Assembly: GCF_036967205.1 (NCBI RefSeq)
Contig: NZ_CP146022.1
Coordinates: 2,976,001 to 3,040,000 of the forward strand
Source: Streptomyces sp. Q6
GTDB lineage: Bacteria > Actinomycetota > Actinomycetes > Streptomycetales > Streptomycetaceae
Length of the DNA stretch: 64,000 nucleotides
Direction: 5' to 3'
Position numbers and translations under genes: made by a program
Notes under the pieces: generated by a model
What the model was told of the DNA's origin: nothing
Database searches by the model: none
Seen by the model: the letters and a program-made list of their open reading frames with translations, nothing else
In this document: one piece after another, positions 60,067 to 64,000 of the stretch
Layout of the letters: each line of letters starts with the position of its first letter
Position numbering within the stretch: the first letter of the stretch is position 1

Positions 60067-60139
60067 GCCCCCGTAGCTCAGTGGATAGAGCAGGCGCCTT
60101 CTAAGCGCTTGGCCGCAGGTTCGAGTCCTGCCGGGGGCG
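60067..60139 (+). tRNA. tRNA-Arg (UCU anticodon)
   Basis: A 73-nt tRNA with acceptor stem GCCCCCG/CGGGGGC, D-arm GCTC...GAGC, anticodon stem GGCGC/GCGCT, anticodon TCT at 60100-60102 in the loop CTTCTAA, T-arm GCAGG-TTCGAGT-CCTGC and discriminator G. CCA is not encoded. It reads AGA codons, rare in this GC-rich genome. A terminator follows. It is a classical integration target, and integrase remnants lie immediately downstream. Confidence 0.97.
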
Positions 60140-60147
60140 CCTCTCGT

Positions 60148-60172: not shown

Positions 60173-60847
60173 TGCTGGTCAGAGGCCCTGTACGTGCGCA
60201 CGCAGAAGCCCCGACCACTCCCCTGCCGATCCCGGGGCTGTCCGGCCGAAACCGGGTTTCTGCGGGTGGCTCTGTCGAATACGTGTCGAAGTTTTCGCGG
60301 CGGGTCAGTCGGGCCGTTCAGTCCGTCAGTCGGAGGCAGCAGGTCTTCGAGATCCCCCGCCGCTTCGAGGCGCCTCTTCAAGTCCGGCAACTGGCCGTCG
60401 ACACATCGGGCATAGATCGCGAGCAGCACGGGGACGCTGTTGCCCGCCCAGTCGGCCACCTGAGCGGGCGGGATCCCGTCGTTGAGCCACTTGGCCAGGC
60501 GGGTGTGTCGGAGGTCGTACACGCGCTTGCCCATGGGTGACTCGAAAACGTGCGCAGGCTCCGGGTCTTCTCAAGATGAGACCGGGAGCGAGTTTCGCTC
60601 GACCCACTGGTCACGACGTCCCGCGGGGCGCCTGGGCGGCGGTTCACGTTGAAGGCCCTCACGCAGAGCCGTGCGCACGGGCACGGCGACAGGATCGAAC
60701 TGTGCAGAGCGAACGCGCAGCAGAGCGATCGTGGTGGCCGTAAGCGTCTTGGCCGTGTTCTTCCGGCTATCGCCGCCAAGTTGGGTCCAGCGCGCATCCA
60801 CCTAGGGTGCGACCGTGCCGAACGGCTCGCGCCAAGCCGGCGACTAT

Positions 60848-61780: not shown

Positions 61781-63928
61781 TCAATCAGCGGGCCGCTCAG
61801 CCACCTTGGCTCGCAGTTCCTCCAAGAGTTCATAGCTCCTAGCCGTGTAGGGGTGCTGATCACCGAGGCTTTGTTCGCGCCTGTGGGCCACTAAGGCCAT
61901 CAACTCGACTGCCGGCTCTAATTCGCCGAGGGCGGCCAGGACTCGCGCGTACAGAAACTGCGCTGAAAGCGTGAGTGCGTAGTTGGGGCCGTGGCAGCGT
62001 TCGTAGTCTTGGGCGACTTGCCTCGCATCCTCGACAGCCGCTTCAAACCGACCAAGCCGGACCAGGGAGAAGGCGTAGCTGAGCCGTGACCCCAGGGTGA
62101 CAGCGTGGTCAGGTCCCAAGTGAAGAGCGCACTCTTGCGGAAGTGGCATCATCGCGCCATCGACCTCAACAGCAAGGTCGGTTATTGGCAGGAACTCAAG
62201 CAGGTGAGCTCGAGACTGCAGCGTGAGCGGGTGCTCCTTTCCGAGCACCCGTTCCCGTCCGTCTGTGGCGCGTTGAAGAAGGGTGACGCCCTCCGCCGCA
62301 TGCCCAAGCTGCTGCAATGGGTGGTTGAGCCCGAAATAACTGTCCAGTGTGTCGGGGTGGTCGGGCCCGAAGAGGCGTTCCCGGTCCGCAAGCACCCGCC
62401 GGAGAATCGCTTCAGACTCCTCGAACCGGCCGAGGCGGAAGAGCGCCCGGCCGGCCCGTGCGTGCGCGGAGAGCACCAACCTGTGTTCCGGACCGAGCTT
62501 GGGTTCCGTGATAGTGGCCGCGGTAGAGGCCAACTCCCGGGCTGACAGGTAATCGCCAGTACGGTGGAAGGCGCACGCCAGCCGTACCGCGACATCGAGA
62601 GCGCTAGCCACCACGGACGCATCAGCGGCATGGTGTAGCAACGCGAGGATATGCGGTGCGAGGAGGCTCAACCCTAGGTCCTGCGGACCCCGCTCAGGGA
62701 TGGTTGGTACAACGGCGTCCAGTAACAAGGTTGCCGTACTGGTGAGCTGCCTTACCTCCTCGTGCGGGATGCCAGCCATCACACTGGCAAGCAGCACAGC
62801 ATGGGTTTGAATGCATCGCGTGCTGACGTCAATCATCGTGGTCAGGGACTGATCTAGTAGTCCACGCAGCGCCACTTCGGCCCGCGGTCGAGGGACGACA
62901 CTATTGATCTGCGGGTTGTTCAAGAGCGTAAGCGGCAGTGGCTCAGGCCCAAAGCAGGCGAGCAGACGGAGCAGGGAGGCCGATTCCTGCACTCCCTGGG
63001 CTGCGAGTGCGTCGAGAGATAGCTGCCAGGTGCGGGTGATCAGGTGCCGGTCGTCCCGTTGGACCAGAGCTGCAGCCCCTTGGTCGATAAGGCCCACGCG
63101 CTCCTGGCCTTCGAGGTGCTCACCGTATTTCTCCATGGTCCACGGATCGATGACCTGATGGGAGAGGAAGCCACCCGCCAGGGTGAGCGCAAGAGGGAGC
63201 CGTCCGAGCCTGTCCGCGATCTCGGCAGCTTCCTCCAGCGTCCCCGACGTTGGCGCAAGGTCGCACAGCACCTGCGCTGCCGCCTCGCGAGGCAGTACCC
63301 CGACGTGATGCAACTCGGCATGCGGCCACCATTGAGCCGCGGCCCGACGAGTAGTGACCAAGACCGTGCCGCGCGGATTGGCACGCAGCCAGCCGCCATC
63401 CTGCAGGATCTCCGGAGAATCTGCGTTGTCGAGCACCAGCAGCCAAGAAGATTCGGACGCTTCGAGTCGCTCCCATACTAGATCCGCAGGCGCCCGTAAC
63501 CCGCTTCGAGCAGCGTTCAGCTGGCCTTCTGCCGCCCCTCTGTCCGCAGCCACGGCTAGCATGCCGCTGCGTAGACTGGCGCGATCGGCCGCATTGACCC
63601 AAAACCCGATGCGGTCACTTTCTGTCGTTGCGAACTGAAAAAGCGACCGAGCAACTGCGGTCTTACCGCAGCCGCCCATGCCATGAAGCACGTAGACCTG
63701 GTCGCCTACCCCCGGCGCGACTGCGGCTTGAAGAGTTCGCATCAGTTCGCTGCGGTCACGGAGCACCAACGGCGCTCGGCCACCGGTCGGCTGGCGTACT
63801 GATTCAGTTCCCGCCCACGCGCCCGGTCCGACGTCTCCATGGTGGTGGTGTTCGACAATGTGCTGATCGCCGGAAGCTTGGTAGACCCGGCCGTTATGGT
63901 CGGCGCGACCGTCCATGGCGCCCGTCAT
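61781..63928 (-). CDS. STAND NTPase (NB-ARC) with C-terminal TPR, NLR-like
   Basis: A 715-aa protein. The N-terminal 30 residues carry GRVYQASGDQHIVE (13-26), then a His-run and linker. The NB-ARC NTPase (about 55-330) has Walker A LHGMGGCGKTAVARS (83-95), Walker B SSWLLVLDNADSP, the sensor TVLVTTRRA and GRLPLALTLAGGFL (the GLPLA motif of NB-ARC). After a winged-helix-like region, the C-terminal half (about 470-700) is kinesin-light-chain-type TPR (LGPEHRLVLSAHARAGRALF, FGPDHPDTLDSYFGL, LGDQHPYTARSYELL). NLR-like STAND proteins oligomerise on ligand sensing by the repeats; many are anti-phage or cell-death switches. The ATG overlaps the upstream stop (ATGA). Base composition is lower in GC than the neighbours. 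Confidence 0.9.
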   Translation of the reverse strand: MTGAMDGRADHNGRVYQASGDQHIVEHHHHGDVGPGAWAGTESVRQPTGGRAPLVLRDRSELMRTLQAAVAPGVGDQVYVLHGMGGCGKTAVARSLFQFATTESDRIGFWVNAADRASLRSGMLAVAADRGAAEGQLNAARSGLRAPADLVWERLEASESSWLLVLDNADSPEILQDGGWLRANPRGTVLVTTRRAAAQWWPHAELHHVGVLPREAAAQVLCDLAPTSGTLEEAAEIADRLGRLPLALTLAGGFLSHQVIDPWTMEKYGEHLEGQERVGLIDQGAAALVQRDDRHLITRTWQLSLDALAAQGVQESASLLRLLACFGPEPLPLTLLNNPQINSVVPRPRAEVALRGLLDQSLTTMIDVSTRCIQTHAVLLASVMAGIPHEEVRQLTSTATLLLDAVVPTIPERGPQDLGLSLLAPHILALLHHAADASVVASALDVAVRLACAFHRTGDYLSARELASTAATITEPKLGPEHRLVLSAHARAGRALFRLGRFEESEAILRRVLADRERLFGPDHPDTLDSYFGLNHPLQQLGHAAEGVTLLQRATDGRERVLGKEHPLTLQSRAHLLEFLPITDLAVEVDGAMMPLPQECALHLGPDHAVTLGSRLSYAFSLVRLGRFEAAVEDARQVAQDYERCHGPNYALTLSAQFLYARVLAALGELEPAVELMALVAHRREQSLGDQHPYTARSYELLEELRAKVAERPAD

Positions 63929-64000
63929 CGCTCAGAGATGCGCTGGTCGCGGCCGGCCTGGTAGATCCTGGCGTGGCCCGAGGCGGTGGCATGCTGCGTC
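63925..64000 (-). CDS. 3' end of a gene sharing the STAND protein's N-terminal motif (partial)
   Basis: Only the last 24 codons are in the window: TQHATASGHARIYQAGRDQR then ISER and a stop that overlaps the STAND gene start (ATGA, 63925-63928). The motif ARIYQAGRDQRISE at its C-terminus aligns with GRVYQASGDQHIVE at the N-terminus of the next protein. This looks like an effector whose C-terminal tail matches the receptor's N-terminal tail. The body of the protein is outside the window, so its domain is unknown. Confidence 0.6.
   Translation of the reverse strand, partial: TQHATASGHARIYQAGRDQRISER

Follow-up and report, generated by a model that had tools for sequence, protein, structure and literature searches.

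A candidate amyloid-signalling gene pair of the Bell/BASS/NLR kind in Streptomyces sp. Q6, and motif-bearing membrane partners of its relatives

Two overlapping genes with a shared terminal motif

We analysed a stretch of 64,000 nucleotides of Streptomyces sp. Q6 (contig NZ_CP146022.1, positions 2,976,001 to 3,040,000; hereafter the window), at the right edge of which two overlapping genes on the minus strand encode a small putative effector and an NLR/STAND protein. The effector reading frame is cut by the edge, and only its C-terminal end lies inside the window (63925..64000). A 10-kb stretch (L003) of the 8.95-Mb genome was therefore fetched to read on past the window end. The whole effector gene (L003:3926-4336, minus strand; start at 64335 in window numbering) begins with GTG and has 136 codons for a protein of 136 amino acids. 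In the window, the minus strand from 63999 to 63922 translates as TQHATASGHARIYQAGRDQRISER, ending in a stop; when the whole gene is read its last residues are VTQHATASGHARIYQAGRDQRISER, and the C-terminus of the 136-residue protein is ARIYQAGRDQRISER. The effector stop overlaps the NLR start by 4 bp in the sequence ATGA (63925..63928, minus strand), an overlap that suggests translational coupling.

The NLR/STAND protein (61781..63928, minus strand; 715 amino acids) consists of an N-terminal motif followed by an NB-ARC domain and TPR repeats. Its gene, read from 63928 to 61781, opens with the residues MTGAMDGRADHNGRVYQASGDQHIVEHHHHGD, and the N-terminus of the NB-ARC/TPR protein is GRVYQASGDQHIVEHHHH. 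The effector-side motif, ARIYQAGRDQRISE, is located at 63931..63972 on the minus strand (effector residues 122-135) and is predicted to be disordered. The receptor-side motif, GRVYQASGDQHIVE, lies at 63851..63892 on the same strand (NLR residues 13-26) and is directly followed by the His tract HHHH (63839..63850, minus strand; residues 27-30). The P-loop of the NB-ARC domain, GMGGCGKT, lies at 63659..63682 (minus strand; residues 83-90). The NB-ARC domain itself spans residues 77-276 with 35.7 bits in Pfam (cut-off 23.5), and TPR repeats are found above the Pfam cut-off, with the best stretch from residue 446. The initial annotation of this locus had described two different proteins with a 4-bp overlap and a short motif shared by the C-terminus of one and the N-terminus of the other, and the translations confirm this description. 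The motif pair that it had assigned to 63880..64000 also stands, with a different extent, since the receptor-side motif reaches 63851.

The effector had no match above cut-off in Pfam and NCBIfam and none in PADLOC, and its best match among PDB sequences had an E-value of 0.31. Structure prediction gave a five-helix bundle, with helices within residues 3-102. The predicted local distance difference test (pLDDT), averaged by block, was 89-96 at residues 1-100, and the tail was mostly below 50 from residue 106. The first helix is hydrophobic, with a Kyte-Doolittle value over 19 residues (KD19) of 1.48 versus at most 0.37 past residue 40, and an N-terminal KD19 of at least 1.0 was found in 86 of 137 effectors with less than 80% identity. 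The own genome contains no good second copy of the effector (next best E = 0.009). Being 136 residues long, without a Pfam match above cut-off and predicted as a five-helix bundle, the upstream protein is no further STAND/TPR protein. Furthermore, its motif is not buried in a globular fold, as the block pLDDT of the motif tail was 42-45 from residue 111 on, compared with the 89-96 of the bundle.

Motif pairing within the genome and among relatives

The local alignment of the two protein ends in the window scored 43 over 18 residues. When both ends were shuffled 20,000 times, this score was reached 12 times. The resemblance of the two ends alone is thus good but not overwhelming. In contrast, the uniqueness of the motif pair in the genome is decisive. 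A held-out profile, made from 12 effector-side motifs of other genomes and no window sequence, recovered only two places at E<=1 when run against the own genome in six frames, namely the effector (E = 5.2e-13) and the N-terminus of the NLR (E = 4.4e-5). With a wider profile that included both window motifs, these two places had E-values of 2.8e-12 and 1.4e-11, and a further two places reached only 0.52 and 0.56. The motif profile had no match among PDB sequences at E<=10.

Homologues of the effector were detected in 58 of 100 genomes searched (E<=0.01). Within the genus, a profile found them in 241 of 392 genomes (E<=1e-8); both counts include the own genome. Named genomes were scanned with the pattern [RH][VIA]Y[QM]AGRD[QM], so that the motif is present by construction in the effectors retained; the best 80 of 204 relatives were kept, giving 79 loci with 55-70% identity, of which 74 are labelled as Streptomyces. 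The partner side of these loci was not selected for the motif, as the downstream gene was picked by its GC content at third codon positions and its length alone. This motif-blind choice yielded a partner in 75 of the 79 loci. Of these partners, 72 start at -4 and bear the motif; a P-loop is present in 71 and a His run in 62. Reading by eye added L051 and L109, which brings the loci with a motif-bearing partner at -4 to 74 of 79. At L039 a receptor-side motif is present just downstream of the effector, and its start was left unset. At six loci the effector motif is intact, but a second one is absent from the stretch examined, which covered 8.4 kb including the upstream side for L056, L094, L100 and L107, and 3.4 kb for L136 and L139. 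These six are possibly orphan effectors that would be fired by receptors elsewhere.

A protein search without selection for the motif gave 29 loci (L008-L036), each the one best match of its genome rather than all matches. The motif YQAG[RGH][DN] was present in the 13 best of these loci, and other tails in the weaker 16. The match between partners was then compared in 123 pairs, including the window, with effectors below 80% identity and a relaxed choice of partner. Cognate pairs had a mean score of 48.5 versus 35.7 for non-cognate pairs. Among 10,000 permutations, which ignore shared ancestry, the highest value was 39.1. In a stricter set of 98 pairs without the window, the cognate and non-cognate means were 49.0 and 35.8 and the best permutation was 40.4. 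The cognate partner was the single best in 15 of the 123 pairs and within the top 5% in 28, compared with 11 and 23 of the 98 pairs in the stricter set; it was seldom the single best because many pairs share one motif class. Since the cognate mean of the 123 pairs lies above the best permutation, the motif is indeed matched between neighbouring genes among the homologues, as had been anticipated for a genuine pair. L161 and L185, in which a stop interrupts the effector, were excluded. Some loci are repeats (L119 of L015, L244 of L232 and L259 of L238), and some named loci are identical with loci of the G series.

In an alignment of 72 orthologues of the NLR (71 named and the window), residues R14, Q17, D21, Q22 and E26 were invariant, and residues 31-39 formed a variable stretch. 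On the NLR side, the motif is followed by this variable stretch and hence lies outside the folded domains. Genomes from other genera of the same taxonomic order had adjacent effector homologues arranged in tandem, at G067:C27:113102-113859, G063:C152:14305-14988, G062:C1:8381939-8382708 and G070:C48:7083-7903.

Membrane partners without a P-loop

The relaxed choice found a partner at 213 of 236 effector loci, repeats included, and some of these partners were membrane proteins without a P-loop that carried a matching motif. We picked 19 such pairs by eye for a shuffle test, on the basis of a membrane segment and a motif; they are a picked set and not a survey. Their motif match was equalled in at most 16 of 3,000 shuffles for 18 pairs, and in 61 for L016. 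This test did not include L265 or L271, the latter with a membrane segment and a motif noticed on visual reading, and L176, L231 and L240, which have a hydrophobic stretch and no visible motif, were not counted as membrane receptors.

In 14 partners (L015, L016, L023, L035, L159, L184, L190, L191, L203, L232, L236, L238, L262 and L273) an N-terminal membrane segment follows the motif, and in eleven of them, those with all segments listed, it is the only membrane segment. Lys and Arg were more numerous on the N-side of the segment in ten of the 14, equal in L236, L238 and L262, and fewer in L015; for L262 and L273 the C-side of the comparison was truncated. This bias leans towards a location of the motif inside the cell. 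A ricin-B lectin domain scored above the Pfam cut-off in five of these partners (L232, L236, L238, L262 and L273). They come from five genomes, of which one, G069, belongs to another family. The motif of the ricin-B partners is of another kind, GN.F.GP..xQ.G, which is also found on the P-loop proteins L248, L250, L253 and L258. Below the cut-off, the outside parts were TIG-like in L159 and L023 and DUF3558-like in L191, and those of L184, L203, L016, L015 and L035 had no Pfam match. The L191 partner (L191:2255-3523, minus strand) also has repeats (QNIVSGDQTIVSGHQQIVVGDQHIHIG) after its receptor-side motif, with a weak, below-cut-off match to a beta-roll antifreeze model.

A second class of non-NLR partners combines the motif with a coiled-coil-like middle and C-terminal membrane segments. 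It comprises L187:3943-5055, L189:3928-5019, L192:3979-5010, L195:3780-4886 and L197:2395-3513; the L187 protein, the only one of these scanned, had no Pfam match.

Drosophila PGRP-LC is a membrane receptor that crosses the membrane once and bears a RHIM-like motif. It is an analogue in layout of the membrane partners of the relatives, with an N-terminal motif, a membrane segment and an outside domain, and no homology is claimed. We consider it somewhat more likely than not, with less confidence than for the window pair itself, that Bell-type effectors are not confined to NLRs and are also motif-paired with membrane proteins lacking a P-loop. This would amount to bacterial amyloid signalling across the membrane, started at a surface receptor arranged like PGRP-LC. 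If these partners are real receptors, bacterial amyloid signalling would reach from cytoplasmic NLRs to the cell surface, for example to glycans, and the animal layout of a membrane receptor with a RHIM would gain a bacterial counterpart. The window pair most likely belongs to a known kind, and it is the membrane partners of its relatives that would surprise. We found no report of such a pairing in the literature searched, which did not cover the founding paper (Dyrka et al. 2020) and its tables.

Receptors of unlike architecture had His-rich tails (EHHHH, RDLHVHY, THIHI) immediately following the receptor-side motif. His was counted in 49 partners with less than 70% identity, a set chosen for the alignment of both sides to the motif. 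Among 35 NTPase partners, the 16 residues after the core contained 16.8% His versus 2.8% further on, and among 10 membrane partners 11.9% versus 1.5%. At least two His residues in the tail were found in 24 of the 35 NTPase and five of the 10 membrane partners, so that the feature is not universal. Effector tails contained 16.4% His per residue as well, owing to their short DQHITER end, and the contrast between receptor and effector is therefore one of length and clustering. As a weaker idea, the His-rich tail may tune nucleation, for instance by pH or metal.

Interpretation and genomic setting

The window pair is most likely a Bell/BASS/NLR two-gene amyloid signalosome of a known kind, in which BASS stands for bacterial amyloid signalling sequence, and most probably of the RHIM-like family BASS3; we put the probability of this reading at roughly 80%. 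We tentatively take the motif to be BASS3 from its letters, the host and its RHIM-like look, rather than from a match to the BASS3 profile. The initial annotation had suggested a BASS pair of YQAGRDQ type; the BASS-type pairing is supported, and a separate new type need not be invoked as BASS3 fits. One observation does not favour this assignment: the conserved Gln residues of the window motif are spaced by 5, versus 7 for those changed in the Streptomyces atratus control, which slightly lowered our confidence to the value given.

In published work, the BASS3 family is described as RHIM-like, and members from Frankia and S. atratus have been tested (PMC8086366, PMC9815663). Foci appeared in Podospora with the S. 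atratus member and were absent with two of its proline mutants (PMC9815663); cross-seeding of BASS3 with the mammalian RHIM is also described (PMC7889193). In the literature consulted (PMC7889193, PMC8086366, PMC7885112, PMC9815663, PMC12261475), Bell/BASS/NLR signalosomes resemble the window pair in having the motif at the effector C-terminus and the NLR N-terminus, adjacent or overlapping genes, a small helical effector with a hydrophobic helix and an actinomycete host. Such signalosomes belong to multicellular bacteria, mainly actinobacteria or cyanobacteria, which agrees with the Streptomyces host. We saw no defining difference in these excerpts; the likeness to Bell is one of build. The conserved EHHHH tail on the receptor side of the window pair is not mentioned in the excerpts of the BASS literature searched, in which Dyrka et al. 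(2020) was not covered.

Fungal HELLP/PNT1, with its PP-motif, and mammalian RIPK1-RIPK3 are working analogues in which a RHIM-related motif is used, as described in excerpts of PMC12881547 and PMC7885112. According to the same excerpts, PNT1 is an NB-ARC-TPR NLR and its executioner a helical-bundle membrane protein, as proposed for the window pair. No homology of the window effector's bundle to HeLo or MLKL is claimed. Furthermore, residues 58-573 of the NLR align with the TPR protein of the FxSxx-COOH system (NF040586), where a score of 299.4 bits falls narrowly short of the curated cut-off (300). This match begins behind the motif of the window NLR, and the two systems were compared through the TPR protein alone.

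By analogy with these systems, the NB-ARC/TPR protein would act as a sensor of some trigger. On sensing, its NB-ARC domain would oligomerise and bring together several disordered N-terminal RVYQ..GDQ motifs, which could nucleate a short cross-beta (RHIM-like) amyloid. This amyloid would template the same motif on the disordered effector tail and thereby cluster the helical bundles. Clustering might free the hydrophobic first helix, with membrane damage that would kill or disable the hyphal compartment. Amyloid formation, templating, membrane attack and a role in defence are inferred here from papers on other members.

The alternative that survives best is that the shared motif is an ordinary docking peptide, by which the tails bind a common third partner or each other in soluble form, with no amyloid. 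We consider this unlikely. The basis in the window, sequence similarity and predicted disorder, would suit docking as well; what speaks against it is that the motif is rich in Gln and Gly and alike on both sides, as in BASS3, where the foci of a Streptomyces member were abolished by proline changes (excerpts of PMC9815663). A toxin-antitoxin-like arrangement, in which the NLR, acting through the tails, keeps a small helical membrane toxin inactive until the NLR itself is lost, would agree with a small protein bearing a hydrophobic helix, a gene overlapping a larger one and an island that looks mobile. Conversely, the six loci whose intact effector motif has no counterpart in the stretch examined, and the retention of the motif by partners of quite different build, fit activation better than neutralisation, and we regard this arrangement as very improbable. 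Coincidence, or a duplication of a low-complexity tail within the locus, would be compatible with the 12 shuffles that equalled the score of the pair and is nevertheless practically dismissed by the uniqueness of the motif pair in the genome and its recurrence across relatives.

The pair is a self-contained module of two genes and one motif, and the held-out motif profile detects nothing else in the genome at E<=1. Such a module would be a clean case, limited to one pair, in which to ask if cell death in Streptomyces is driven by amyloid templating.

The left end of the supposed island that carries the pair is a tRNA-Arg(tct) gene (60067..60141, plus strand). Beyond the effector, copies of the 3' part of this tRNA were found over 30 nt with 93% identity (L003:6187-6216) and over 26 nt with 92% identity (L003:7143-7168). 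The left flank was matched in all 24 same-genus relatives searched, in some only partly, and the right flank was not syntenic with relatives. In at least five of the 24 (G009, G014, G015, G020 and G024) the contig had an additional tRNA-like copy at a distance of up to 26 kb, and tRNA-Arg(tct) has the appearance of a hot spot for integration in this genus. In our reading, the pair probably sits in an eroded integration island whose site is a tRNA hot spot. The accessory island beside a tRNA that had been proposed earlier is supported in part. Adjoining the tRNA, a reading frame at 60300-60534 (minus strand; MGKRVYDLRHTRLAKWLNDGIPPAQVADWAGNS...) resembles by eye the end of a tyrosine recombinase.
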